Notes under the pieces: model-generated
What the model saw: only the letters and a program-made list of their open reading frames with translations
Database searches by the model: none
Told to the model about the DNA's origin: nothing
In this document: positions 12,147-64,000 of the stretch, piece by piece
How positions within the stretch are numbered: the stretch's first letter is position 1
Layout: each line of letters begins with the position of its first letter
Translations under genes and position numbers: made by a program
Assembly: GCF_018873765.1 (NCBI RefSeq)
Contig: NC_057917.1
Location: 56,602,464-56,666,463, forward strand
Direction of reading: 5' to 3'
DNA from: Telopea speciosissima
Lineage: Eukaryota > Streptophyta > Magnoliopsida > Proteales > Proteaceae
DNA length: 64,000 nucleotides

Positions 12147-12274
12147 ATTTTTACCAAAAAAAAAGTGCTTACCTACTCATTTCTTTTGTCTGTTGTTTTC
12201 TGCTCTTCTTCGTAATTCGGTGTTTGGGTGTGTGGAATAGTTTTGTTTTGTTGGTACCACACTACCACTGCACT

Positions 12275-15317: not shown

Positions 15318-16922
15318 ATGTGGATGATGGGTTGTAACGATATGTCTGATTCCTTCAACGGCAGGAGACTTCGTCCTCTCATGCCAAGACCCACTTCAAA
15401 TACTACTAATGCTGTACCTGCAACTACACCTTCAACTCATCCTTATTTTAGTCGTATTCATGGCTCCTCTGATCTCTTCCCATTAAATACCCATCTGGGT
15501 AACCTAATATAACCCTCTTTTAAATCATTTATTCATATTAATTTTTTTCATTTCTCACCTGGGTTTTTGATTATGTTTCTATATTCTGATTGCAGGAACC
15601 ATTACAGAGCAAAGCAAGAGAGAGTTCAGTGCTCAACCCGTAGTTAGTTCAAGATGGAACCCCACACCTGAACAGTTAAGGTCCTTAGAGGAGTTGTATC
15701 GACGTGGAACTCGCACACCGACGGCCGAGCAAATCCAACACATCACTGCTCAGCTTCGTCTGTTTGGTAAGATTGAAGGTAAAAATGTGTTCTATTGGTT
15801 TCAGAATCATAAAGCTAGAGAACGACAGAAACGCCGAAGACGATTGGAATCTGTTGCTGCTGCTGAAGAACAACATCGATACGGCATGGAAAACTTGGAA
15901 AAGAAAGATTCAGGTACTCATGCTATTTGTCCATCTTCTTGTAATTTCACTAAATTGACTGAGAGGGTTTTGTTTGAATCTGTTTTAAGTTGTTGCTTGA
16001 TGAAAGTTTAATTGGGTTTTTTTTTTGGTTTTGTTTTGTGGGTCTTGTTTGCAGGTTCAAGTAGGACAGGAAGCTTTGAAGTAGAACCGAACAGGAACTG
16101 GGCAACCCCTACAAACTGCAGTACACTTGCAGAGGTCTTCTATACATCTCAATTGTCTCTAAAACCCTTTAGTCTTCTTTACCTGTGGGTAACCAGAGAT
16201 TGTTAATTTAAAGCCACTGAAACATCTAAAATCAATGATTAGAAGAAATTATACTTTATGAGAAGATAAAGTAGATAGAAAAAGAAGGAAGAAACACACA
16301 CAGAGCAACAAATTAAAGGCAAGGTTTGTATGTTGGGAAACTAAAAGGAGGTTTAAAAGCTGTACTACTCCTTCCTTTCTGTCGGGTCTGTTGTTATGAA
16401 ACTGGGCTGTGAAGCCTTTGGACTTTTGGGTCTTGTGTTAACTCATCTCTTCTTCTTTTCTTCTTTATTAATTTTTTATTCATTTACTTTTCTTCTTTTT
16501 TCCAGGAATTTGTTTCAATGCAAAGAGCAGCAGTAGCAGAAAGTAGACCAGACGAATGGATTCAATTTGGGGAGGGAGAAATATTACAACAGCAGAAGCC
16601 AAGCTTGCCAGAAAGTCATGCCACGTGGCAGATGATGAATCAGATATCTTATTCTACTCTTCCCACCCACCTCATAAACACTATAACCAGAGCTACTGAA
16701 GAACCAATAAAGCTCACAAGCTATGAAAGCCTCTGCAGTGATCAAAATGAGGAATATGGAGAATCTAACACACTTCAGCTCTTCCCACTTCACAGTGACA
16801 ATACCAATAATGGTGTTAATGGTGCAAAGGAGGAGACCAAGCTGGGTAGTATTCAAATGATGAATACTACTACTGATTACACTCCATACCAATTTATTGA
16901 GTTCTTACCCACGAAGAACTGA
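15318..16922 (+). CDS. WOX1: WUSCHEL-related homeobox transcription factor, WOX1 type
   Basis: Read as join(15318-15498, 15596-15913, 16055-16134, 16506-16922), 331 aa, all introns GT-AG and in frame. The N-terminus [20 protein letters not shown] is typical of the WOX1/STENOFOLIA/LAM1/MAEWEST group. The WUS-type homeodomain lies at about residues 78-142, with the enlarged loops of the family and helix 3 [16 protein letters not shown] intact. The WUS box TLQLFPLH (residues 282-289) and a C-terminal YQFIEFLP tail are present. In the family it is a nuclear, mainly repressing regulator of lateral (leaf blade and petal) outgrowth. The exon 3 donor (GTCTTC) is weak but gives the reading TLAEEFVS, which suits the family. 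No disruption is seen. A WOX6-like paralogue is the only real alternative. Confidence 0.9.
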
Positions 16923-24954: not shown

Positions 24955-27620
24955 ATTCAGGCCAATAAGCCTTTGTAACGTGGTGATCAAGATTCTAACC
25001 AAAATCATGGCCAAGAGGTTAAGCGGGTATCTTGATGGCATTATCTCTCAAAACCAGTCTGCCTATGTTCCCTAGAGAGTGATTTCCACAATATTTTGTT
25101 AGCTCATGAGGCATATCACTATATAAATCAAAGGAAGAAAGGCAAGAGTAAAATTATGGCTTTGAAATTGGACATGAAGAAAGCCTATGATCGTTTGGAG
25201 TGGAGCTTCATTGAGGGGATTCTGATCCAGTTTGGCTTCTGTAAGAAGTGGGTGGACATGGTTATGGCATGTATTACCTCAGTCTCTTATGAGATCTTGA
25301 TTAATGGGGCTGTTCGTGGCGTTGTTACCCCTACCAGAGGCATTAGGCATGGTGACTCACTTTCCCTAGCCATTTTCGTGTTATGCTCCCAGGCTCTAAG
25401 CTCTGTCTTGAAGCAAGCGAAAGAGAGGAACTTGATTCACAGTATTAAGGTTAGAAATAGAACATCCCCTATCTCTCACCTCTTATTTGCCGACGACAGT
25501 TTGATTTTCTTCAAAGTATCCCTTCAAGAGATACACAACCTCAAGGATTGCCTCCGATCATACTGTAACGCAAGTGGCCAACAGATTAACTTCCAAAAAT
25601 TTGTTCTTACTTTCTCTCCTAACACTGCCCCAAAGTTTCGGAGATGGTTTTCAAGGATTTTGAAAATCCCCTTTGGCACTACCCCAAGGAAATACCTTGG
25701 CCTACCGGTTCAATTTGGAACTTCAAAGGCCAATCTTTTCAGGAAAATTAGCTAGAAGACCTCGTCTAAGCTCCAAGGATGGAAACAAAGATTGCTCTCC
25801 CAAGCTGGCAAGGAAGTCCTCCTAAAGTCGGTAGCATTAACGTTCAACAATTTTGCCGCCTCTCACTTTAAGCTGCGGGCATCCCACCACCTTAAGATTA
25901 GGCAAGATTCTTCTCATTTTTTTTGGGGGGAGAAAGAAGAGAGCAAAGGAATTCATTGGCTTGCTTGGGATAAGCTATGCAGATCCAAAGAGAAAGGAGG
26001 CCTTGGTTTCAAGGATCCTTCGATTCAAAATCAGGCCCTTTTAGGCAAGCTTGCCTGGAGAATTTGGAAGGACCCATCTTCTCTTTGGGCTTCCAGCATG
26101 AAGCAGATTTACTTCTCTCACACTGATTTTCTTATTGCTATTCCTGGTTCGAAACCTTCGTGGGGTTAGAGAAGTGTTCTTGAAGGAAGAAAGGTGCTCC
26201 AACTTGGGCTTCTTTGGATTATTGGAGATGGTTCTCGCATCAACATTTGGACTGATAATTGGCTCCCTTCTTCTCGAACTTTCAAGATCCAATTTCCTAG
26301 TTAGAAGGTTGATACTGTTACCTACGTTCTAGACCTGATTGATGAGCAGAATCGAGTTTGGAAAGTGGAGCTAATTAGGGGAGTCTTTCACCCTGTGGAT
26401 GAGGCAGAGATCTTAAATATTCAATTGAGTGTGTTCAATAGACCTGATATACAGGTTTGGGGTGTTTCTAAGAGCGGCGTATACTCTTCCAAGTCGACTT
26501 ACCATCTCCTGAACAATCTGGAAGAGAGGAAGCGAAGTATGGCTGCAGCTTCCCCCTCTCATATGGAGAACCAAATCCCAAACTCTACTTGGAAAAGGAT
26601 TTGGTCTTGCAACTCCTTACCTAAAATCAAAAGTTTCTTGTGGAGGGCCTGCTTGAATGCCATTGCTTGTGCAGATAATCCGAGGAAGAAATGCATCCTC
26701 ATTGATCCCCTCTGGAGTAGATGTGGTAGAGCCTTGAAATCAACTAACCACCTTCTCTTGGATTGTGATTTTTCCAGGGCTGTATGGTTTGGATCTCGAT
26801 TGTCCTTTGTTCCCCCATCTCAAGACCCGCAGATTTCCAAAGCCATCCATTGTTGGGGGTCCCTTTCTCCATTCGACAAGGTAGCTAGCAAAGTGATCAT
26901 TAGTTTTGCCTCCTTCTTATGCTCGAATTTATGGCTCTCCCGAAATGATCTTACTTTCAATGGTAAGAACTCATCCCCGCAGGAGGTTATTCAACAAGCT
27001 GAAAGAAGTTTCTTAGAATTCAAAGAGGGTGTCACCAAGTCTTCAGTCCAGAGTAATCAAAGTCCTACACCAGCTCAATCTTCTACTCCTACATCTTGGA
27101 CCCCTCCGGCTCCTCAGTTAGTAAAGATGAATGTGGATGCAACGCTAAACAAAGGCAAAGGGGGCATTGGTTTGGTGGTTAGAAACTCAACAGGAATCCC
27201 TTCCTTAGCAGTATCCTATCCGATGGTCTTCTCGTCCCCTCTTCGGAGTGAAGCTCTTGCAATTAGAGTTGGGCTCTTGGAAGGCATATCTGAAGGATTG
27301 GACTTCTTAATGGTGGAATCTAACTGTAAAGAGTTGATCTCCTTGGTATTCGGTTCTCAGTCAACTACTCCTCCTGAGGTTTATACTATTTTGCAGGACA
27401 TTAGAGAGCTGAGAGGCTACTTCAGGGAATGTACTTTCCACCATGTTTCTAGGGAGAATAACAGCATGGCTGACTCCCTAGCAAGGAGGACGATTTCCTT
27501 AGCGTGTAGGATTTCCTGGCCCATTTCCACTACTTGGATGTCTGACCTTGTAACTTGAACATCTTGAGTCCTTCACACGTTAATGAATAAGTTTGTTTCT
27601 TAGCAAACAAAAAACAAAAA
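24955..27620 (+). mobile_element. 5'-truncated L1-type LINE (reverse transcriptase, zinc-finger, RNase H)
   Basis: The sequence opens in the RT domain at FRPISLCNVVIKILTKIMA. It continues with MALKLDMKKAYDRLEW, the RT core LLFADDSLIFFK, then QRLLSQAGKEVLLKSV. The zf-RVT region has WKRIWSCNSLPKIKSFLWRA and LLLDCDFSRAVWF. An RNase H domain runs from VKMNVDATLNKGKGGIG to HVSRENNSMADSLARR. The endonuclease half is missing, as in typical 5' truncation during retrotransposition. The main frame is interrupted by a break near 25075-25090 and by three TAG codons (25753, 26167, 26302), otherwise it holds for about 2.4 kb, so the copy is fairly young. It ends shortly after the RNase H stop in an A-rich run near 27607-27620. 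Confidence 0.9.
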
Positions 27621-27850: not shown

Positions 27851-29142
27851 TAGAATTACATATAGGATAGTTATCCATGTAAAAATAGAAAGTGGTGTTT
27901 TCGAATATCACAAGATAAATCTGAGCCATTCACTTTTTTAAGGTTTTTTTTCATCTAAATCGTTTGTTCCCACTAATAATTGGGAGAGTGCATGGCAATG
28001 TCTAGAGTACTAGAACACATGCATGAGCATACAAGGGATGTGTGCCAATACAACAAGGGCGTATTTGATTGAATTAGACTTTGAAATTTGATATGTGACT
28101 AATCTAAACCATATCCGTTCTATCCAACGGTCGGAATGGACATATCATCTGTCCACGTGGTAGAATAAATGCATTGTGACATTTGAAAAAATAACAGAAC
28201 TGTGTCAATAAGCCTTATATATAATATACAATTAAACATAATGATACATTTATACCACACACTCAAAAACAAGGGTAGTCAAGACCAGTTCAGCCTTGCC
28301 TAGCCATGGAATGGCAAAAATAGGGGTAACTAGGGTCAATCATGGCTAACTACGCTGCTCTGGGCTGAGCCTAACAGAGCTGGGCCTAAGGTTGGGTTGA
28401 ATGGGCTTTATCATCTGATTTAGGCTGGGTTGGGCTAAGTTAAGGGGACTACGGTTGAGTTGAATGGGCTTTGTGAGATTGGTATTGGTTTCGACTGGTT
28501 GATTTCCATATTGATATCGATATGAATATGCATATGGCCATATGGGTATTTTCAGACAGTTTTACCCTGATTTTTTGAAATAAAAGCCCCATTTTGGACC
28601 ATTTTACCCTCAGTAGGGATCAATACATTGTTACTTTATCGGTCAGGAATTGGTATTGAGTACCAACGACACCAATACGTATAGGCTGACATGGCCGATA
28701 AAATATCGATACCATGAACCATGGTTCTGCCCCTGTGGTGGTCTTGAGACTTGAGAGCAAGTTTATTCAATTTTGGAATCGGGTCCATTCAATTTCAATT
28801 TCGATTACAATTCAATTGAATTGATTGGGAATCGGTCTGAACCCTAGAGATGCAGTGGTAATCGGCCACTTCGAAAACGGTGAGAATTTTATCTAAATCG
28901 GCTGATTCGAACGATACGATTCCGATTCTTGAAACCAGTGCTTGAGAGTGAAAGATTAGGTGCAAAACATGTTTGTGCAATGACATTTTGTGGTATCTAT
29001 TTTGGCATGAAATTAATTGGAGGTTATGGTATCTTTTCCATCTTAATTAATCAATGTAGCATTTTTTGGTGTTTCATGAAAAGCTAAGTCCTATGTGGGA
29101 GTGTGGGACGCCATATATGCTCAATGTAGTATGCCCATTTTC
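27851..29142. other. Intergenic, degenerate repeats
   Basis: A GGGCTGGGTTGGGCT-type hAT remnant is visible at about 28280-28450. A GATATCGATATG/TATCGATACC repeat occupies about 28475-28725. No gene is seen. Confidence 0.4.
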
Positions 29143-29520
29143 TAGGGGTGTCAATTGGTCTGGTTTTGGGCTATTGGTTTGGATCTTTAGCGGTTCCGGA
29201 TCTAAGGTGTGAAGATCATAACCAAACCAATAAGCTTCTCGGTTCTAAATCTGAGACCTAGGACCGCTAACTAATGGGTGGTCCTGTTCCAGTTCCTAAT
29301 CGGTTCCGAACATTATTGAGCCCAAAACAAAGACAATGAGAATTTCTCTAGGAAAACGGCAACTTCATCATACATAGATATAATCTTGTAGAACCCAAAA
29401 TAAAGACATTGATGCATATATAAATAAGGAGACAGCTTTAAGAGTTCAAATTTCCATTTCAACCTCAACTAATATAAAAAAAGCACCACTTGAAAGTCCC
29501 AAGCAATGTAATATTATTAA

Positions 29521-31405
29521 GGGCAAATTTCATGGACACCCCTTGTAAGTTAGTGAAATGGCACAACATATCAAACCTTGTCAAAATATCACAGACACCC
29601 CCTATTTTATGATTTTATTTCAACTTAGTCCATTCCGTTAGGTCTGTGCAGTTAAGTCGCTGTTAAATTTTTTAAATAACGAAAATACCCTTACCACAGG
29701 ATGAACTCCCCATAATACCCTTACATCTAAATGTAGAAATGAACCACATTTTGCCTTCCACCGCCGCCGCCGCCACCACAACACCGTACATTCCACCTCC
29801 GCCGTTGTAATGACCACTCCCACTCCCCGGATTTACAACACTGCCATTGCCACCGACGGCTGATCCTCCGACACTTGAACCACCGGAGCCGTCCTTCTCA
29901 CCTATACGACCCATGGAACTCTTCTCTCCCTCCATCTCCCGGAACTTCTGGAGATAAATCTTCAAGGGCTCCACATACTCTTCGAATCCCAGAGTAGTCA
30001 TGGCCCATAGTAGATCATCGCCATTAATGGTCTTCCGCTTCTCTCTCTGGCACTTATCTGAAGCTTCTCCGGTGATGAAACTTATGAACTTCGACACGCA
30101 CTCCTGAACGGTCTCCTTGGTGTCTTTGGAAATTTTACCGTTGGCAGGGAGTGCCTTCTTCATGATCCTGCTCACGTTAGCTATGGGAAGGAAACGATCT
30201 TGCTTTTTCGGAGAGAATTCGCTGTTGGCGTTGCTGTTATTTGGACCGCCAGAGTCATTGTCTGAGTCTGCCATGAAATCCGGTATAGATCAGGATTTTG
30301 CTTGCTTTTACGTTGGAAGATGGACCAAAGAAAGGCACTCTTAACACAACCTTTCGGAAGTTTCTTTTTTTCTTCAGCTTTTGGCTTTCAGTAGAGTACA
30401 ATAATTGAGAAAGCTATCAAGAGAACAATCATTAATGAAGGATCTCAGTAATTTAGAAATTCCAAAGAAAAGACCATTTGGCTTGGTTTCCCTTTTAGCA
30501 CACGGGTAAGAGCTGAGACAAAGAAAAAACAGAGTCATGAACTTAGTAGCAAAAACAGGAGATGGAACCAAAGGCGTAGGTGTCGATAAATTGAAAATTT
30601 TTGACTGTCTTCTCCGGCTAAAACAGACCAAGACAGACCAAAAAGAGTGAAGAAATTAAGGTTTCAAAGCTTGAAGATTCGGCTAGAATGGAAAGAAAAG
30701 GAATCTCAGAGGTTCATCTTAGGGTTTCTGAAAGTTTCGCCTTTGTTTCATGCAAAGGCGAGGAGGGTTAAGGCTAGTAAACGCTACAGCCTCCAGCGAT
30801 GATAGGACGGACTTAGGACTTAGGACTTGAGCAGCGTTAAGTTAAGTCAATGGAGGCCAGAAGGGTTTTGATCTTCCCTTAAAGCACCGTAACCAGCTTG
30901 GCAAGTTTTTGAATCTTTAGATAGGGCTTTAGTCATTTTTTTCTGTTTTCATTTCCCTCTCTGGTTTGGCTGTGTTGTCTTCTACGCTTCTTCGTAATCT
31001 GCTTTTTTGGTTTTCCCCATTTAAAATTTCAGTCAAAGTTTTTTGCTTCCGTTTTTTTTGTTCGGGATTTTGCCGTGCCGTGTGGTATGAGAGAGAGAAG
31101 GGAGGAGAGGGAGGGTGGCGATGTGTGGGAAAGGTGTGTAGTGCGGGAGAGAAGCTTACCGTAGGGAGGAGATGACTTGCAGCTTTTTCTAACGGAGAAG
31201 ATGAACAGTAATTGTGAAGATGGAAGAAGATGGAAGAAATCGTTTTTATTTAAATAACTAAAAGGTTAAAATGGACATTTAAAAAAACTTGGGGTGCTAA
31301 CTGTGCTTAACATCAGGGGGAAGGTTGATACTTTGCCATGGTTTGGTACTTTGGTATGTCTGTGTCATTTCACTAACTTATAGGAGGTGTCCGTGAAATT
31401 TTTCC
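29521..31405. mobile_element. Pack-MULE (Mutator-like element) carrying a captured NF-YB gene
   Basis: The ends GGGCAAATTTCATGGACACC and the complement of GGTGTCCGTGAAATTTTTCC form inverted repeats alignable over roughly 75-85 bp, including the shared block AAGTTAGTGAAATG. An exact 9-bp direct repeat TATTATTAA flanks it (29512-29520 and 31406-31414), the size made by Mutator-type transposases. No transposase is present. Instead the 1,885-bp element contains an NF-YB coding region on the minus strand and about 0.9 kb of sequence upstream of it, probably captured with it. It sits inside the hAT-type element 29143-31663, so it inserted later than that element. Confidence 0.88.
29672..30274 (-). 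CDS. NF-YB (CCAAT-box factor subunit B) copy captured inside the Pack-MULE, with chimeric C-terminus
   Basis: A 200-aa single-exon reading frame. The N-terminus [15 protein letters not shown] and histone-fold core (about residues 26-115: [19 protein letters not shown] through [20 protein letters not shown]) identify a plant NF-YB of the NF-YB2/3/10 type. NF-YB pairs with NF-YC and NF-YA to bind CCAAT boxes in the nucleus. The core has [19 protein letters not shown] where plant proteins almost invariably have [19 protein letters not shown]. After MYG the Gly-rich tail turns into [10 protein letters not shown] and ends in residues encoded by transposon sequence. The histone fold is open and could be expressed, but the three changes and the foreign tail suggest weakened constraint. 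It may be a pseudogene or a new chimeric gene; transcription is unknown. Confidence 0.8.
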
Positions 31406-32431
31406 TATTATTAATATGTTAGGATTTAAAGGCTTTTAAGGTTTTAGATTTCTAATTTTTCATTCAATCAGTTTACATATCATCTGGTTCCAACGGTTTT
31501 GGTTCTACCGGATCCTTAATGGGCTATCGATCTAGAACCGTTGGGAGACCTGGACCAAAACCGACTAGAACCAATAGTATATAAGACCATATCCATCCCA
31601 ATAAGCTATTGGGTGGTTTGGTTGCCCACCCGAATCGATTTTGATCCTAAATTGACACCCTTACCATTTTCTATATTGTAATTAGGGGTGTCAACGGGCC
31701 GGTTCGGGCCGGTTTCGGTTTGGGTTTTTCGATTTCGGTGTGACTTTTATACAAACCGAAACCAAACCGTTAAGAAATGTTCGGTTTCGGTGCGGTTTGG
31801 TTTTGTGCCGGTTTCGATTTATGACAACGGTTTGGTACCGGTTTTATATGACTACTAAGATCCGATTAGTGCTTATTTTTCTTTTCTTTCTCTTATAAGA
31901 ACAAGATTTGAACATTAGATAAAAGTTCATATCATATGGAAGTGGAACCCAAGAAGATTTTCAAATGCAATTACAAGATGTGACCCACTTAAAAGTCCAT
32001 ACAACATCTACTTAAAAATTCATGCAACATTTACTTAAAAGTCTATACAACATTGAACATCCACTTAAAAGTTTTAAAAGTTCAACATTTAAAAATTCAT
32101 GCAACATTTACTTAAAAGTTCATACAACATTGAACATCCACTTAAAAGTCTTAAAAGTTCAACATTAAGAATTAATGTTCCCTTAAAATAATTATGTTCT
32201 TCATTCCTCAAGAACGATAACACAACATAAGACTTGAGAGTTGAGACCAAAAGTGAAATAACATGTCCTGCACACACAAGAATAAAAAATATATATATAT
32301 TTAACTCCAAAACTCAACAATTGTTATATTTTCTTAAGAATCAAATAATAAATAATGAAATGTGTGCAAATGCAAACTACCTTTTCAACAGGCTCGAGCA
32401 AATCCTTCTCTATCTATTATAACCTGAAGGC

Positions 32432-34688
32432 TCACCAGTCTCCTGTCTCCCTTTCAATCTGCAACCGTCCAAGCACATTTCCTAGCGCGTTGTCCACATC
32501 AACGGGATCATCAACAGGTTCAGCTACATACATAAGAATATAAGATAGTAATTTAGCAACTAAAGTAAGCAAAAATGAAAAATAACTTAATGGAAATTGA
32601 AAAATTACATCTGAAATGTATATCAAACATCCAGTCTCGAAGACATATCAGTGCTTCAGCGTTGGAAGGTAGTAGTTTGCTCCGATATTTGTCAATAACA
32701 CGACCCCCAGCGCTAAAAGCTGACTCAGATGCAACCGTTGAAACTGGTATAGCTAAGACATCACGAGCCATCCGAGCCACATCTGGATACCTTGACCCAT
32801 TCGCCTTCCAAAAAGCCAACACATCATACTCATCATCATGATCACTGAATGGAATCTTGGGTTCATCTAGATACACATCTAGCTGAGATTTAGTTCCATT
32901 ATCTGCCTCAGCAATCACTGATTGCATAAATTCCTATAGAAATTGAAAAATATGAGTCATTAATAAGATTAGCAATGAATATGGAAACTTGCAACTTAAA
33001 AAATAAATCAAAATTACAAGAAATGTAAAATTTACTTACGATTCGGTTCTAGATTTCCAGGCCGAGTGAACAGATGGAATCTCATAATCACTTGCATTCA
33101 TACTCTTGTATTCATTAAAAAGCTGATACAAAGCAGATTTCACATTGTTTCCCATATCAATTCCAGTTGGGTCCAAAGGAGCAAGCTTAGCAAATGCCCA
33201 ATTCACAAAACTAAGTTTGTAACGAGGATCGAACACCAAGGCAATGGCCAAAATTGGACTATAGTTCCTCCAATATTTGTCAAATTTCTTTTTCATTTCA
33301 ATTGTCATTGGCCTCATAAAACTAAGCCCATGTGATACCTCTTCTAACAAACTTTTGTGAATCTCCCAAACATTTTCAAAATACAAATTTGATATAGGAT
33401 ACTTAGAACCTGAAAGCAAAACAGTGATTTCATAGAAGGGATGCAAAAAACCCATCAATTTTTCAATCTTTAACCATTGATCAGAATCTGGACAAGTTTT
33501 ATAATTGTCCTCCACTAGTCCAAGGTTCTCAAATGCTTTCCGATAAAATAAAGCAGAATTAAGCATGATATAAGTTGAGTTCCACCTTGTGGTGACATCT
33601 CCATGCAACCCCTTACTACTTGGTAATGACAATTGCTTACAAATATTCAAGAATTTCATTTTCCTTGCTTGTGATCCTTTCACATAGGCTATACTAGATC
33701 GAATCAATGCCACAGACTCGTCTATGTGCTTTAGTCCATCTTGTACAATGAGATTGAGAATATGAGCACAACACCTATTATGAAAGAATTCTCCTTTACA
33801 TAAAAGAGCATTCTTCAAATTCAGATTTCTCTTCAACAACTCAACAAAGCTAAAATTAGAAGTAGCACCATCCAAAGTAATTGAAAACAATTTTCGATCA
33901 ATACCCCACTCAGACAAGATCTTTGAAACCATTTCACAAATATTGATGCCAGTATGTGGAGGTGGCATGATGCAAAACTTCAATAATTTCTTATGCAACA
34001 CCCAATCCTTATCAATATAATGGCCAGTCAAAGATAAGTATCCATCATTGGTGATGGATGTCCATAGATCACTTGTCAAAGAAATCTTCCCATTAAATGA
34101 TTTGAGTAGATTATGGATTCTACTGGACTCCAAATTGTAAAACTTCAAAATCTCCGCCATTTGTGTGTTGCGGGTAATATGGGTGTAGTCAGGAAAAATG
34201 TATGTGATTAATTCCCTAAACTCCTCATACTCAACAAAGATTAAAGGTAACTCATGTCTCACAATAAGCCTCGTGACCTTATCACGCACCCAGACTTGGT
34301 CAACCTTTTTATCTCTTAACATTAATTTCCCATCATTAACACCCAGAGTCATTTGGGTTGGTCCTTTGTTTTCCCGTTTTGGGCAATGTAAAATATGTCT
34401 CCTAAGGGTTTCAGTTCCATTAGTAGTACTATCAGCCTTATAGATTTGCCTACACCTATTGCATTTCGCTCGTTCCTTCCCATCACTAAAACCCTTCCCC
34501 TCAAGAATTTCAAACTCCTCCCAAACAACACTCCTTCTTTTCCTCTTGGTAACATCTATTTCAACAGTTGTTGTGCCAGCAGGTTCTGTTGCTGAAATTC
34601 CAGGAATGTAAAGTCCATCATCGAACATCACATCAGCATCTGAGCCACAATCGGGCTCATCTTCCATGTTGACTTGTGTGTTAGACAT
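32432..34688 (-). CDS. hAT-family transposase (BED zinc finger, RNase H-like core, hATC dimerisation domain)
   Basis: Cut-and-paste transposase. The start is taken at MSNTQVNMED; 45 upstream in-frame residues are hydrophobic and unlike the family. A BED zinc finger lies at about residues 54-103 (CNRC ... RRHILHC). The catalytic fold shows TSDLWTSITNDGYLSLTGHY and SITLDGATSNF. Middle hAT blocks include TRWNSTYIMLNSA and HPFYEITVLLSGSKYPISNLY. The first long exon ends near 33044 at a GTAAGT donor. A second segment (about 32622-32930) has the hATC motif YPDVARMARDVLAIPVSTVA followed by SESAFSAGGRVIDKYRS. A third short piece ends ERETGDW at 32432. The exact frame across the first splice (acceptor near 32932) does not join cleanly as I read it, so either the junction differs or the gene carries a small lesion. 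No in-frame stop is seen inside the conserved domains. Confidence 0.85.
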
Positions 34689-35826
34689 TTCTATAACTAT
34701 AATTAATAGAAAAACATATAACATATTAATGACTATAATTAATAGAAAAACATATAACAAAAAGAAAGATTTTAACAACAATATTTGTGAATTTGTGACA
34801 AGTGCTGTCATATAATGACTCAAAACTTGAACTTAAGGCTTAGCAAATAGAAATCTAAGATTCTAAGTAGGAAAAGAAAGTGTTGAAGTATCAAAATCAT
34901 AAGTTCAAGAAAGTTCCTATTGCTCCCCAATTCAACAAATAAAAGTGTGAAATACCAATAAAACTGCAATGTCCTCCAATCTGACTCAAGTCACTTGGAA
35001 GGGTATGAGATGGGACGAACTTGAGCTATGATTAGTTGATTACCCATAGGTCATAGGACTTTAAAAAGCTAGGCTATGCAAGGGAATTCAAAACTTTACC
35101 ACTTTGAGTTTATTATCCAATGATGCACTCCCTTTGATCAACAAATGCTTAGTGACACAATCATTCCAGTTATGGGAGAGTAAGAGAGTATATAACCCAC
35201 AAGACTAGAAGACACTTCATGAAATGTGGAGGTGTAGAGTATTTTAACTGAACAACTTTAACCATCATTTTAAAATTAAATTAAAACATCTCTTTTCTTC
35301 AATTACATGATATCAGTAATCAGCAGTTGAGGAAATAAGCATGTGACTATTTATAACACCAACTAATTAATATGTGGACTAAGACACGTATGCAATACAG
35401 TCAATGGATTTTGCCAGGCTGGGAGTGTTTAGATCATTTACCTAATTTCCATTTTAACTCACAAATTGGTTCCTAGCAAACCAGTCCCAAGTTGAACCTT
35501 CAAAGAAGTGAGTATATATTTCTAGAACAAGAGTAGTGCGAAACTCACACTCAAAAACTTAGAAAGACTGGCAAGGTTGGGGGGGGGGGGGGTTGGATAA
35601 AAAGGGACAGAGGATAGAATCCAGATAAACAAAAGGAATCCAAAATAATTATTTCCGTAGACCTGCCAAATGCTATCCATCAAACATCATTCAAATCTCA
35701 TGAAAAAGCAACATAACTACTCAACAGTACCAATAAATCCAATTTCTCGTAAAACAAATATCACTGAGAATTAAAGAACAATCTTACGTATAAGTATCAC
35801 AAAATTTCAAAACCTCAACAGTCAGT

Positions 35827-42866: not shown

Positions 42867-43137
42867 TGTAGAAATTAGTGAATGGCTTGATTGATCAATG
42901 AGATCAGCCAAGCTCTCTATTTATAATAATAATAATAAAAGAGATTACAAAGGGAAACACTGTTCACATGAACAGTGTCACAGCCCAAATATAACTCTAA
43001 TTTTAACTAGTTAAATAGAGCTAGAATAGAACTAGGAAAGGGAAAATAACTAAAATAGAAATAACACCCCATGGGTCGATCTTATATCATGGATCGACCC
43101 ATGTCACACGTAATACCCAAATACCCATATTCCAACA
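42867..43137 (-). repeat. Copia fossil LTR (left; 3' LTR of the element)
   Basis: A 271-bp LTR. It contains an (AAT)n tract near 42925 and two inverted repeats: ACACTGTTCA paired across 42958-42980, and CATGGGTCGATC paired with GATCGACCCATG near 43070-43105. Confidence 0.9.
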
Positions 43138-44700
43138 CTCCCCCTCTAGTTGGTGCGTAGATATCAATCATGCCCAACTTGCACACTAGAGGTTGAAAAA
43201 CTTTTCCACTTAAGCCTTTGGTGAACACATCAGCCAACTGTTCCCCAGATTGCACATAAGGAACACAAACCGTCCCATTATCCAGATTTTCCTTGATAAA
43301 ATGACGATCAATTTCAATATGTTTCATCCTATCATGCTGCATTGGATTATGGGCAATGCTTATTGCTGATTTACTGTCGCAGTAGAGTCGCATAGGCAGA
43401 GTAATAGGAATACTCAAATCTTGTAACAAAGTCTTGAGCCACAATAGTTCACAAATACCAAGAGCCATAGCTTTAAATTCAGCCTCTGCACTAGAACGGG
43501 CTACCACTATTTGCTTCTTGCTGCGCCATGTAACACAATTTCCACCCACAAATGTACAGTAACCTGTGGTGGATTTTTGATAATGGGAACCAGCCCAATC
43601 TAAGTCGGTGTAGGCCTCAATCTGTAGATGATCATGACTAGAGAATAATACTCCTTTACCAGGAGCCGACTTCAAGTATCTCAAAATCCTGAATACTGCT
43701 TCCAGATGATTAGACCGGGGATCATGCATAAATTGACTGATAAGACTCACAGCATTGGCAATATCAGGCCTAGTGTGAGATAAATAAATTAGTCGCCCAA
43801 CTAGCCTCTGATATCTCCCTTTGTCCACTGGTTCACCATCAGTGTCTCGGAAACTGCTTCCAGATGATTAGACCGGGGATCATGCATAAATTGACTGATA
43901 AGACTCACAGCATAGGCAATATCAGGCCTAGTGTGAGATAAATAAATTAGTCGCCCAACTAGCCTTCGATATCTCCCTTTGTCCACTGGTTCACCATCAG
44001 TGTCTCGGAAACGAGCATTTGCCTCAATGGGAGTATCCACAGGAGAACAGCCTAACATGCCAGTTTCAGAAAGAAGATCTAGAGTATACTTGCGTTGAGA
44101 TAAGAACAGCCCTTGAGAAGAATGGGCGACTTCAATCCCTAGAAAATAGCGAAGTATGCCTAAATCCTTAATCTCAAATTCCTTGGCCAAATAATTCTTC
44201 AACTTGGAAATTTCAGTAGGGTTATTTCCAGTTACAATTATATCATCGACATGTACTAGGAGGAGAGTAATAATGCTGCCCGATGTCTTGATAAATAAAG
44301 TGTAATCTGCATTGCTTTGTTTATAACCAAATGTCAACATCGCTGTCTGAAAACGACCAACCCATGCACGTGGTGATTGTTTTAGACCATACAACGCACG
44401 CTTAAGTTTACAAACCTTGCCATGAGTTGCACCAGATGAGAGAACCCAGGAGGGACATCCATATATACCTCTTCCTCTAATTCACCATGGAGGAAGGCAT
44501 TTTTAATATCAAGCTGCTGTAGACTCCATCCTAAGTTCACAGCACAAGAGAGAATTACCCTGATAGTGTTCATTTTGGCAACAGGTGCAAAAGTCTCCAA
44601 ATAATCTATCCCATATGTCTGAGTAAATTCGCGAGCAACCAGCCTTGCTTTAAAACGATCAACAGTTCCATCAGCTTTTTTGTTTAATTACAAAGACCTA
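43082..44700 (-). other. Copia fossil: reverse transcriptase and RNase H region
   Basis: Recognisable Copia motifs include [34 protein letters not shown] and RHFIKENLDNGTV. Decayed, part of the element above. Confidence 0.85.
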
Positions 44701-46700
44701 CTTGCAGCCAATAGTCTTCTTTTGTGGTGGAAGTGTGACAAGATCCCATGTACCACTCTTCTTTAGAGCTAGCATTTCTTCGATCATGGCCTCCTTCCAC
44801 CTAGTATCTGCAAATGCCTCCTGCCAAGTCTGTGGTATGGAAACAGAGGATAAAGAGGAAACAAAAGCATGAAGTAATGGGGATAAAGATTCATACGAAA
44901 CAACCTGTGATATTGGATGTTGCGTACAAGACCTTTTTCCCTTTCTAAGAGCAATGGGTAGATCAAATGATGGATCCGAAGTAATAGGAGAAGTAGCAGC
45001 ATCTAAAGGATTAGAAATATTACCAGAGGAGGTGTCATTTGATCCTGGGTCAGAGGACAACTCTTGGTCTGGTAATGCTGCAGTGGTGGGCTGTTGTTGC
45101 CCTTTTTTCTTTCGATAATACTGCTGTGTGAAATCTTTCACTGGCTGTACCTGCTGCTCCCCTTGAACATCATTATCTAAAGGTACATGATAGTCATCAA
45201 TAGGTTCATGTAGAGGAGGAATGGGAATCGGCACTTCTTCTAGAGTAGGAATGGACTCCCCCCGAAGAGGTGCCGAAGATGGAAAGAAAGCCACGGCCTC
45301 ATGAAAAACGACATCCATGGAAACAAAAACACGACGAGATGTAGGATGATAACATTTATACCCTTTTTGGGTGGGAGAATAACCAATGAAAATACAGCGG
45401 AGACCGCGGGGATCAAGTTTGCCATGGGCATAGTGGTTTCGAACAAAACAAACACCCAAAAATTTTAGGAGGAATAATATAAGAAGAAGACCCCTTCAAA
45501 AGATCAAGAGGAGATTTATAGTCAAGTACCCGAGAGGGCATCCGATTGATAAGATAAGCAGCTGTTAAAATAGCCTTCCCCCAAAAATGAGAAGGAACAT
45601 GCATTTCAAACATAATAGAGCGAGCTACATCAAAAAGATGTCTATTTATGCGTTCAGCCACTCCATTTTGGGGTGGAGTGTCAACCCAACTGGTTTGATG
45701 AATAATACCCTGAGTAGCAAGAAATAATTGAAAGGCTCCATCTCAATATTCACGACCATTGTCACTCCTGAGAGTTTGAATGGTAGCTTGAAACTGAGTT
45801 TGAACCATGCTATAAAAGACTTTAAAACAGGAAAAAACTTCACTCTTGTGTCGCATTAAGTAAACCCAAGTGGTGCGTTGTGGCAATCAATAAAGGTGAC
45901 AAACCACTTAAAGTCAGAAACAGAAGAGGTACGTGAGGGACCCCAGACATCAGAATGAATCATAGAAAAAGGCTTAGAACATCTTTTATTTGAACTAGAA
46001 TAAACTGAACGAGTTTGTTTTGCAAAAACACAAGCCTCACATAATAAAGAGTGAGGGTTTCAATACTGAAATAAAACAGGAAAAATTTTAGCTAAGTTTC
46101 CTAAAGGTGGATGGCCCAGTCGACGATGCCATCGGTGCAATTCAGATAAATGATGTTCAGCAGAAGTAGCAGTAACAGCCTGGCCAGATATAGCATGAGA
46201 GATAAGATCATCGTCAAGCAAGTAGAGACCATCATGCATTTTACCAATTCCAATCGTTCTCCCTGTCCCCAAGTCCTGAAAGACACAATGTGAAGGATAA
46301 AAAATAGCTTTGCAATTGAGATCAGATGTCAAACTACTGATAGAAAGCAAATTAGAAGTTAACTTAGGAACATGTAAAACAGAGGACAAAGATAAAGAAA
46401 GAGAATAATGGATGGCTCCCTTCCCTGAGACAGAGGAAAGAGAACCATCGGCTATTTTAATTTTATCTTTGCCTGAACAAGGAGAATAACAAAAAAATAA
46501 ATTGGACTGACCAGTCATGTGGTCAGCGGCTCCGGAATCGATTATCCAAGGATGAGATAATGCCGAAGCACAATGACCAGCAAAAGAAATACCTGGTTTG
46601 GAGAAAACAAGGCTCGATTCAGAAGAGGGAACCACAGTCGAGGTAGAGGCAGGTGCAGATGAAGAGGCGAAGGTAGTCATCATACGACGAAAGGCAGCAA
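44700..46700 (-). other. Copia fossil: protease and integrase region
   Basis: WIIDSGAADHMTG is the aspartic protease neighbourhood, and LHRWHRRLGHPPLGNLAK marks the start of integrase. HFWGKAILTAAYLINRMPSR and RCIFIGYSPTQKGYKCYHP belong to its C-terminal part. Decayed. Confidence 0.8.
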
Positions 46701-46799
46701 GTTCCTCTGCAGAAAGTGTGGTAGTAGGGGCTGTTTCAGTAGCTTTAGAAAGATGGGCCTGTGTGCCACCACGACCACGGCCACGGCTTCGAGCACGAC

Positions 46800-47670
46800 C
46801 ACCACTACGACCATCAGAAGAGTCAGATGGCCGACCATGTAACTTCTAGCAAAAATCCACAGTATGTCGTTCCTTTCCACAATGAGTACATTTAAGAGGT
46901 TCCTTCTCAGACGAGGAACGTGTACTAGTACTAGAAGAGCCACCTTTAGAAGAAATTAAAGCAGATCTCTCTGGCTGTGTAGTTGGTAACATGGTGGAAC
47001 GACGAGTATCTTCCAATTGTATCATAGAGTGGGCTTGCTCCAAAGTGGGAAAAGGTGAACGACTCAGAACTTGAGACCGAAACTGATCATATTCCACATT
47101 AAGGCCAGTCAAGAAAGTGTATACTCTGAATTTATCCTCCCTAAGCTAAAATTTGGTAATATCAGAAGGACAATCAAGCTGAAAGTTATCATAATAGTCA
47201 AGCTCTTGCCACAGGCTACGGAGTTCACAGTAGTATTCAGATAAAGTAAGTTCACCCTGTTTGGTTGCATGGAGTTTTCGTTGAATATCATAAACTTGTG
47301 CATCATTCCCTACCTGGGAATAGGTACCGCTAGCAGCTTTCCAAATTTTTGCGGCTAAATCAAGTAGTGTATAGCCACGGGCAATGGATGGAGTCATTGC
47401 ACTAAGAAGAAAAGCCATAACAAGAGAGTTGCTGGAACTCCACTTGTCTTGTAATGTACCAGCTTCACTTGGTTTGACAGTGGTACCATATATATATCCC
47501 TTATAGCCCCTTGAATCAATGGAAAGAAACATTTGTGTAGACTAAAGTAAATAATTAGTGCCATCGAGCTTTATCGGGCTGACTGGAAAAGAGGGATAAT
47601 CATGATGGGTCCCTTGTGTAGAAGATTGGCCAATGTTGGTGGTAGCAGTGGATGCAGCTGAATCAGTCAT
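46800..47670 (-). other. Copia fossil: gag region
   Basis: A gag-like stretch (SEYYCELRSLWQELDYYD) and a CTHCGKERHTVDFC zinc-knuckle-like motif place this as gag. Decayed. Confidence 0.75.
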
Positions 47671-59986: not shown

Positions 59987-61500
59987 TCAAGCTGGAGAAT
60001 AAATGTCATACATTCCCAGCTTGCACAATAAGGTACTAAATAGACTAGGAGTGGGACCCTTGGTGAAGATATCTGCTACTTGATCACCTGTCTTGACAAA
60101 GGGAGTACAAATGCATCCAGAATCTAGCTTCTCTTTGATGAAGTGACGATCAACCTCAATATGCTTGGTTTGATCATGCTGAACCAGATTATGGGCAATG
60201 CTTATAGCAGCTTTATTGTCACAATAAAGTCTCATTGGCCCTTCAGTTTCAAAGCTCAAGTCTTGAAGAAGTCTCTTTAGCCATATAAGCTCACATACTC
60301 CATGAGCCATGGCCCTAAACTCGGCCTTTGCACTGGATCTAGGTACAACTGGTTGTTTCTTGCTCCTCCAGGTAACTAGATTACCACCTATAAAGGTACA
60401 GTACCCAGAAGTAGATCTCCTGTCAGAGACTGAACCAGCCCAATCAGCATCTGTGTAGCCTTCAATCTGCAAATGGTCATGCCTGGCAAATAGAAGACCT
60501 TTTCCTGGATAGGATTTCAAGTATCTAATGATGCGATACACTGCATCCAGATGTCCACTCCTGGGAGCATGTATGAACTGACTCACCACTCTAACTGCAT
60601 AAGAGATGTCTGGTCGAGTCAAGGAGAGATAGATTAGTTTCCCAACTAATCTTTGGTACTTGCTTGCATCTATAAGAGAAGAACCACATTCATCACCAAG
60701 CTTATAATTCGGATCAACGGGGAAAGTTGCTGGTTTGCACCCCATCATGCCTGTCTCTTTCAGAAGATCCAAGACAAATATCCTTTGGCAAATGTTGATT
60801 CCTTTACTTGATCTAGATACTTCAATACCCAAGAAGTATTTCAAGAGTCCAAGGTCTTTAATCTCAAACTGTTTAGCCAGATAAGACTTCAATCTGTTTA
60901 TCTCAGCAACATCATTCCCAGTTACCACAATGTCATCAACATAGACAATGAGAGCTGTAACTGTACCATTACCTCTCCTGATAAACAAGGTGTGGTCAGC
61001 TTGACTCTGATAATACCCATTCTTTAGGATGGCTTGTCTAAATCTCTCAAACCAGGCCTTAGGAGATTGCTTGAGGCCATAGAGAGCTTTCTTCAAGAGA
61101 CACACTTTCCCTTCAGCTGAGGGACACTTAAAACCGGGTGGAGGCTGCATATACAACACTTCTGCTAATTCTCCATGAAGAAATGCATTCTTCACATCTA
61201 ATTGGTACATTGGCCAATCTTTATTGGCTGCCACTGAAAGAAGAACCCTGATTGAGTTATGCTTGGCTACAGGGGCAAAAGTCTCCTGGTAGTCAATGCT
61301 ATACACTTGACTATACCCTTTTGCAACTAGCCTAGCTTTGTATCTTTCCACTATACCATCGGATCTATACTTGATTGTATAAACCCATCTGCATCCAACT
61401 GGAGTTCTCCCCCTGGGAAGATCAACTAGTGTCCAAGTATTGTTCTTCTCCAAAGCCACCATTTCCTCAGACATTGCTTGCATCCATTTTGGATCGGATA
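59987..61500 (-). other. Edge Copia fossil: reverse transcriptase and RNase H region
   Basis: Motifs [60 protein letters not shown] and QVADIFTKG are clear and typical of Copia. Confidence 0.9.
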
Positions 61501-63300
61501 AGGCCTTTGTGACATTTTTGGGAATGGAAGAAGACTCAAGGGCAGTGGAAAAGGCAATACCTGTAGGAGAAATAGAGTCATAGGAAACAAACTGGGCTAT
61601 GGGGTTAGTACAGGCTCTCTTCCCCTTTCTTATAGCAATGGGAAGATCTAATTCAGAAAGAGAAGAATTACCTGACTGAGGAGGATGAGCCTGAGGATGT
61701 GGATCCAAAGAGGGGTTTTGGCAGGGTTGCTTATACCATGGTTGCTTTCCTTTTCCCTTCAACAAGCATTCACCTTTTGTGAATACACCATCTTCTTTGA
61801 ATCTTATTCCCTTGTATTCTTTTTTCCTTCTAGCATCACCACCACTACTAGCATCAATATCAACAACACCATCAGCATCAGCATCATCAACAACATCCAC
61901 TTCTTTGTACTTTCCAATATCAAATTGGAATGGGGAAGTGGAGGTAGGCAAGGGAGATAGAAAAGGAATGACATCAGCATTCTGTTCACTGCTAGTACTC
62001 TCCCCCTGAACAGGATGTTGAGTGGAAGAAAAATAAGGGATAGACTCAAAGAAGGTGACATCTTTGGAGAGAAGTCGCCTTCTGGAAGGAGGATGGTAGC
62101 ACTTATACCCTTTGGTTGAATCAAAGTAGCCCAAGAAGATGCACTTGAGAGCTTTGGGATTAAGCTTAGTACGGCCTGATTTGTTGACATGAACATAACA
62201 AACACAACCAAGGACTCTTAGAGGCAAGGAGAAAACTGAGGATTGAGGAGAAAGAAGAGCCAAGGGGATTTGGAGCCAAGGAGTGGAGTTGGCATCCGGT
62301 TAATAAGAAAGGCAGCAGTAAAAAGTGCATCAGACCAGAAAGTCTTAGGCACATGCATACCAAAGAGAAGACCCCTGGTGATTTCCAGCAAATGGTGGTT
62401 TTTACGCTCAGCCAGCCCATTTTGTTTGGGGGTGTCAACACAAGCCAGTTGATGGATGATGCCATTATCAGTAAAGAATTGTTGGAGCCCCCCATACATG
62501 TACTCACCCCCCTTATCAGACCTAACATTTTGGATTCGAGTACCAAACTGAGAACTGATAAGTTGATAAAAATCCTTAAAAACATCACAAACATCACTCT
62601 TTTGTTTCAACAAAACAGTCCAAGTAGACCGAGAATAGTCATCCACAAATGAAACAAAGTACCGAAATCTAGATAAAGAAGTAGTAGGAGAAGGCACCCA
62701 AACATCAGTATGAACAAGGGAAAAAGGTGCAGTAGATCTATTACCACGATAAGGATTAGATGTACGACAATGTTTAGCAAAAATACAAGATTCACACTGA
62801 AAAATATAAGATGAAGGGAAAGAAGTAAACAAGTGGGGTAACTATCTCCTCATAACAACAAAAGAGGGATGACCCAAACGTTGATGCCAAAGCATTATAG
62901 ACTCCAAAGTACTACGGTCACTCCGACCACAAACATAAGCTGTAGCAGTCGATTGAGCAGGTAACCATGGTTCAAGAAGATAAAGTCCTCCTTTTTCAGT
63001 CCTACTGCCAATAATCCTCTTTGTCTCCAAATCCTGAAAAACACAATAGGAAGGAAAGAAAGTGACACAACAATGTAAGGATTTGGTTAGGTGACGCACT
63101 GATAATAGGTTAGTAGGAAAATCAGGAACATGAAGGACAGACTCAAGGGAAATAGAAGGAGTAACTCGTATTACCCTTACCAGAGACAGAAGAAAGGGAA
63201 CCATCAACAATCCTTACCTTGTCCCAGCCAGAGCAAATGGAGTAGGAATCATAGTACTGTGACATACCAGCTATGTGATCAGAGGCTCCAGTGTCAATAA
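61500..63300 (-). other. Edge Copia fossil: integrase and protease-side region
   Basis: LWHQRLGHPSF starts integrase. VRSDKGGEYMYGG, GIIHQLACVDTPKQNGLAER and AFLINRMPTPLLGSKSP are its catalytic-core and distal motifs. Decayed. Confidence 0.85.
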
Positions 63301-64000
63301 TTCAGGTGGGTGCAGTAGGAGGAGCAGACAAGACCTGCAGAGCTGAGGCAGAAGTAGTAGACCCTCCAGAGGTAGAACCAGTAGTTGACCCTCCAAGGTG
63401 AGACATCAGCCGACGGAGGGCTGCAATATCATCTTGTGAGAGGGTATCAGGAGCCGGCTGGGGTCTAGGTGGCTCAGACTCAGATGTCACAGAGTGAGCC
63501 CTAGCTCCCCCCTCACTTGCCTCCACGGGCACTAGATGAACCACCACGCATACCAGGAGGCTGTCCATGAAGATCCCAACACTTGTCCTTGGTGTGTCCA
63601 AGCTTACCACAATGATCACATTTAAATCTCTCACGGTGATCTCCACGAGGTGGCCCTTGGCCTTTCCCCCCACGTTTCCAGTCTCTGTGGGAACTAGAAA
63701 CAAGGGCAGATCTCTCTATTGATGGTGCAATATCCATAGTGGTTCTCCTGGTTTCCTCACTTTGCAAATAGCTGCACACTTCATCCAGAGATGGAAAGGG
63801 AGATCTTCTTAAGATTTGCAAGCGAAGAGGCTCATATTCTGGGTTAAGACCACCAAGCAAAATAATGATCCTTTCCTTTTCTTGGCTCCTATAGACCTTT
63901 GCCTGATCATCAGAATTAGACAACTGGAGGTTGGATAGTGATCATATTCCTCCCACAAGCTAATAACAAAGTTGTAGTACTCAGATATTGTTGGCAGAAT
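63300..64000 (-). other. Edge Copia fossil: gag region
   Basis: EPLRLQILRRSPFPSLDEVC and the zinc knuckle CDHCGKLGHTKDKCWDLHG mark gag. It continues past the window edge. Confidence 0.85.

Follow-up and report, generated by a model that had tools for sequence, protein, structure and literature searches.

Mutator-like elements (MULEs) are marked by target site duplications of 9-11 bp and by terminal repeats that typically extend over 100-500 bp, and those that carry host gene sequence, the Pack-MULEs, number approximately 3,000 in rice (2,853 in a table of PMC3310237; over 3,000 according to PMC13317346). The size quoted for their captured sequence is 305 bp, and in PMC8277862 protein-coding Pack-MULEs are described as rare, common as Pack-MULEs themselves are. 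In grapevine, MULEs likewise carry gene pieces (PMC2528002). The other system of relevance is the Arabidopsis transcription factor subunit NF-YB2, for which PMC5157953 describes a glutamate, Glu65, as completely conserved in human and Arabidopsis NF-YBs, the equivalent residue being in contact with NF-YA arginines in the human structure. When this residue was replaced with arginine (E65R), binding to NF-YC3, NF-YC4 and NF-YC9 was kept and no trimer was formed with NF-YA2, and overexpression of the variant in wild-type Arabidopsis led to delayed flowering, which the authors read as dominant interference, with the caveat that partners besides NF-YA might also have been lost (PMC5157953).

The element considered here lies within a 64 kb stretch of Telopea speciosissima DNA, which was analysed as a whole and is referred to as the window. 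It spans 29521-31405 (1,885 bp), with both boundaries confirmed, and its ends are composed as follows.

29512-29520, no strand: TATTATTAA, the exact 9-bp target site duplication, at the left flank
29521-29575, plus strand: strong part of the left terminal inverted repeat, with the BLAST alignment beginning at 29525 and possibly some weak similarity further inward
31350-31405, minus strand: strong part of the right terminal inverted repeat, with the BLAST alignment covering 31350-31401
31406-31414, no strand: TATTATTAA, the exact 9-bp target site duplication, at the right flank

On the plus strand of the window, which is the strand that was scanned, TATTATTAA occurs twice, and these two occurrences are the flanks of the element. 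For this pair the inverted ends agree at 34 of 40 bases, as compared with 21 of 40 for the runner-up among the 106 exact 9-mer repeat pairs found between 28001 and 33000. The inverted ends, which we take to be of the Mutator type, align by BLAST over 52 bp (86.5%; 29525-29575 versus 31350-31401); if no gaps are allowed, arms of 46 nt agree at 85% (29520-29565 and 31361-31406, each arm reaching one base beyond the element), and 38 of the first 46 element bases match the opposite end. Inward of this strong part, estimated at approximately 52-56 bp versus the at least 100 bp at 80% typical of MULEs, the similarity is weak and gapped. When the two 200-bp ends were resampled 2000 times with a Markov model, the end-to-end alignment score of 67 was never reached (maximum, 32), and in a harsher control, with random inverted pairs of 300-bp stretches taken from the same repeat-rich window, it was exceeded once in 1976 pairs (maximum, 87; 99.9th percentile, 55).

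No transposase domain was detected in the NF-YB ORF of the element, in which the domain matches are to NF-YB/histone families only, or in two further ORFs, the scan covering these three of six listed ORFs, the rest of which are 51-75 aa long. An exact 9-bp duplication, terminal inverted repeats, a host gene sequence carried inside (PF00808, NF-YB3-like) and the lack of a transposase among the scanned ORFs make the element a Pack-MULE by anatomy. The earlier note had proposed an element of 1,885 bp, with inverted ends of the Mutator type and an exact 9-bp duplication but devoid of a transposase, and had named a failure of the terminal repeats to align as one of two outcomes that would refute it: the repeats do align, as judged from both BLAST and resampling, TATTATTAA is present at both flanks, and the lack of a transposase is borne out for the NF-YB ORF and the two further ones. 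A second copy of the element was not found in the window, where, its own ends aside, one 39-bp match (79%, 12191-12229, E 0.002) was obtained and taken as chance, and the terminal-repeat pattern gave no matches in viral contigs.

The cargo is read on the minus strand and consists of the following parts.

29672-30274, minus strand: NF-YB ORF, 200 aa, uninterrupted, with the histone fold at residues 26-113 (PF00808)
29740-29765, no strand: presumed transition from subterminal element sequence to captured coding sequence, placed approximately from the GC step, the end of the glycine-rich tail and what we take to be the usual NF-YB3 tails
30275-31250, minus strand: putative captured leader or upstream DNA of NF-YB, its origin and right border both presumptive

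The CBF/NF-Y histone fold of the 200-aa ORF (PF00808, 6.2e-26) contains no stop or frame break, and the captured coding sequence is GC-richer than the element ends. Among solved chains the nearest is Arabidopsis NF-YB3 (7cvo_B, 4e-56), followed by NF-YB2, with 82 and 79 of the 88 fold residues, respectively, being identical. Single-sequence structure prediction of the copy was poor (mean pLDDT, 47), with a helix order that fits the histone fold and residue 62 placed within the helix formed by residues 50-67. After the start of the glycine-rich tail, the frame appears to run into the left-end element sequence, and it stops at 29672; the copy thus seems to have lost the C-terminal tail of NF-YB, with element sequence in its place, a reading for which the NF-YB3 C-terminal tails, as we assume them to be, are part of the basis. 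The presence of an NF-YB coding region inside the Pack-MULE, as first noticed, is supported by the PF00808 match and the uninterrupted ORF, and the description of the gene as 'nearly whole' is correct for the 88 residues of the histone fold and apparently not for the C-terminal tail. The approximately 0.9 kb that precede the ATG may be the NF-YB gene's own leader. No Pfam family was found in the two ORFs scanned within it; on consensus reading only, it contains one donor-like splice site at approximately 31160 and several acceptor-like sites, and eight upstream ATGs are found if it is taken as unspliced (31250-30275). We do not claim a leader intron on the strength of these sites.

For a comparison of conservation, six rows, of which five are distinct, were set against the copy: a sequence from the record L001 and the chains of five solved plant structures, one pair of which does not differ over the fold; chain 7c9o_B is presumably that of rice. 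The L001 sequence, which is NF-YB-like, was the one relative among 24 pattern matches in genome contigs, none having been found among five pattern matches in viral contigs; these scans yielded nothing of use towards a donor gene or a second copy. The copy differs from all six rows at 4 of 88 positions (G46, T52, K62 and I106), Thr52 being replaced by serine in one of the compared chains. At position 62 the lysine of the copy corresponds to glutamate in all six rows, with a reversal of charge.

30089-30091, minus strand: AAG, the lysine codon of residue 62, equivalent to Glu65 of Arabidopsis NF-YB2

The L001 sequence, which also has glutamate at this position, deserves a comment of its own. It lies at L001:5001-5356 in a record labelled as a Euryarchaeota MAG, and its NF-YB-like fold is distributed over two frames approximately 50 bp apart, in the manner of a short intron; the record is probably a eukaryotic contig mis-binned as a Euryarchaeota MAG.

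The correspondence between residue 62 and Glu65 is obtained from the published NF-YB2 construct (aa 24-116), a 93-residue segment that, when numbered from 24, places Glu65 within CVSEF (PMC5157953). Since the copy has Lys62 where NF-YBs have the glutamate for NF-YA binding, the ORF of the element is classed as a derived NF-YB copy rather than as a working NF-YB, and the predicted behaviour of its product is to bind NF-YC and to refuse NF-YA. If expressed, the copy would thus be predicted to be an NF-YC trap, or dominant negative, and not a second NF-YB. The prediction is based on a change of Glu to Arg in NF-YB2 (PMC5157953), and it is transferred here to a change of Glu to Lys in an NF-YB3-like protein, a paralogue. 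The earlier suggestion that the product, if expressed, could compete for NF-YC partners is sharpened by the presence of Lys62 at the very residue associated with the dominant-negative effect, with competition still having the status of a prediction.

The nature of the changes should also be considered. With the assumption that the donor gene had the usual codons GAG and GCC, both K62 and T52 fit G-to-A changes. Read from the opposite strand, these are C-to-T changes at a CCG (CHG) and at a CG site. Plants methylate CHG and CG sites in transposons, so that ordinary decay would explain both, and Lys62 may be nothing more than that. PMC4858842, in which neither of the words CpG and transition is found, offers no support for CpG decay. 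The chance that one given residue is struck by luck, with 4 unusual positions out of 88, is a few per cent, and changes at other positions would have been equally striking; therefore, K62 is no argument for selection. The copy at this locus is most likely silent and decaying, and the NF-YB sequence carried may well be an inert fragment.

Among the roles that can be envisaged, silent decay is ranked as the most likely, a role through small RNAs as possible, and expression of a dominant negative as the least likely of the three and the most interesting. In the second case, the element would give rise to small RNAs by which the donor NF-YB gene is silenced or tuned, with no need for a protein. 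The length of the captured stretch is consistent with this function, as are the maize Helitrons, Pack-MULEs and Sireviruses with captures, which are described as reservoirs of siRNAs acting on the donor genes (PMC13317346); we regard it as possible, if on balance unlikely. In the third case, a 200-aa protein produced from a promoter in the terminal repeat or in the leader would tie up NF-YC and lower NF-Y output. The open and whole histone fold, with only 4 of 88 unusual positions, the lysine at the Glu65 position and the donor-like splice site at approximately 31160 in the leader argue for it, and so does the ability of Mutator terminal repeats to hold promoters that drive the interior of Pack-MULEs (PMC3310237). 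However, the eight upstream ATGs of the unspliced leader (31250-30275), the described rarity of protein-coding Pack-MULEs (PMC8277862) and the ORFs adjoining the element on both sides, which are transposon genes, argue against expression, and this reading appears improbable. A broader form of the proposal, in which a captured activator subunit would, through decay of the transposon type, have become a mobile trap for NF-YC, spread by the element as a ready-made regulator of flowering or of other NF-Y targets, seems to us very doubtful. Its appeal is that the domain carried is altered at a residue for which a specific loss of partner binding has been published, so that capture followed by decay, as a source of dominant negatives, becomes testable.

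The sequence on either side of the NF-YB-bearing element belongs to an older hAT-like element (29143-31663), which is split in two by it.

29135-29142, no strand: CCATTTTC, the exact 8-bp target duplication to the left of the outer hAT-like element
29143-29520, plus strand: left piece of the outer hAT-like element, with the end TAGGGGTGTCAATT
31415-31663, plus strand: right piece of the outer hAT-like element, with the end AATTGACACCCTTA
31664-31671, no strand: CCATTTTC, the exact 8-bp target duplication to the right of the outer hAT-like element

After removal of the insert and of one copy of the 9-bp duplication, the outer element measures 627 bp. Its ends match in inverted orientation at 13 of 14 bases (TAGGGGTGTCAATT versus AATTGACACCCTTA), and it has both the 8-bp target duplication and the short inverted ends of hAT elements; the hAT label of ends of the TAGGGGTGTCAA type is our assumption. 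The 8-bp sequence CCATTTTC is by itself common, with seven occurrences on the plus strand of the window. The configuration of an exact 8-bp duplication with inverted ends that agree at 12 or more of 14 bases is instead unique, with one match in 4,467,450 position pairs of the joined stretch (28001-29520 plus 31415-33000), the threshold and the end length having been picked after the site had been seen. No other copy of the outer element was found in the window. Taken as a whole, these observations are strong evidence for a nested insertion of the NF-YB-bearing element into a locus that is not native to the gene. The alternative, namely a native NF-YB locus merely surrounded by inverted sequences, is barely credible and was rejected: the open NF-YB fold and the approximately 0.9 kb of upstream DNA within the element would agree with it, but the exact 9-bp duplication at the inverted-repeat ends, the interruption of an older element with its own 8-bp duplication at exactly that site and the apparent continuation of the NF-YB frame into element sequence do not.

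From these observations, a non-autonomous Mutator-like element would have captured the 5' part of a donor gene of the NF-YB3 type located elsewhere, from the coding start through the histone fold and probably with the leader, the C-terminal tail presumably being lost. With transposase supplied in trans, the element would have moved and landed in the older 627-bp hAT-like element, duplicating 9 bp. At the present locus the copy would most likely be silent and decaying, and only if transcribed would it yield a product that pairs with NF-YC, refuses NF-YA and acts as a dominant negative. We consider this joint account, with capture, mobilisation in trans, nesting, silence and a conditional NF-YC trap, to be very probable.

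Other sequences of the window may be recorded at this point. Directly to the right of the outer element, at 31683, a second hAT-type end (TAGGGGTGTCAACGG) is found, and beyond it are minus-strand pieces of a hAT transposase, with PF05699 at 32553-32933 and PF14372 within 33036-34832 (region 31683-34832); a matching right end (TTGACACCC[CT]) could not be located between 31701 and 37000. AT-rich short direct repeats (ACTTAAAAGT, ATACAACAT) occupy 31920-32170, in the interval that separates the outer element from the hAT transposase. A homeodomain ORF (PF00046) at 15571-16011 is followed by an ORF at 16413-16922, and the two (region 15571-16922) read like a WUSCHEL-related homeobox (WOX) gene, by our assumption; together with the transposon content, this gene points to a plant host. 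In the region 25036-27558, which we take to be LINE-like, an ORF for reverse transcriptase (RVT_1) precedes one in which zf-RVT and RVT_3 domains are present. Stretches of minus-strand ORFs at 43082-47541 and 59987-63941, presumably Copia retrotransposons, have PF07727 in one scanned ORF each.

In the literature searched, which lay outside most subscription papers, no report was found that joins Pack-MULE or MULE capture with NF-YB, or Pack-MULE with both HAP3 and CCAAT, and a single rice paper contains the terms Pack-MULE and dominant negative together; a natural dominant-negative NF-YB was not found either, in a narrow search, too narrow to show absence. With respect to the known systems, the element fits the Pack-MULE kind, with inverted ends, a 9-bp duplication, a cargo GC-richer than the ends and, among the scanned ORFs, none with a transposase domain. 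It differs in the length of the cargo, approximately 1.5 kb with the borders as placed here versus the 305 bp quoted (PMC8277862), in carrying a whole histone fold, and in a strong terminal repeat of only approximately 52-56 bp versus the typical 100-500 bp (PMC3310237). The outer element resembles hAT MITEs in its ends of the TAGGGGTGTCAA type, matching at 13 of 14 bp, and in the 8-bp duplication, whereas it is split by a Pack-MULE and has no other copy in the window. As to the protein, the copy shares 82 and 79 of 88 fold residues with Arabidopsis NF-YB3 and NF-YB2, respectively, and departs from both in having Lys62 for Glu, an apparently element-derived tail and a location within a transposon. 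Finally, the copy has in common with the engineered NF-YB2 E65R variant a positive charge at the equivalent residue; however, the latter is a laboratory arginine mutant reported to be dominant negative, whereas in the former the change is natural, the residue is lysine and the effect is predicted.
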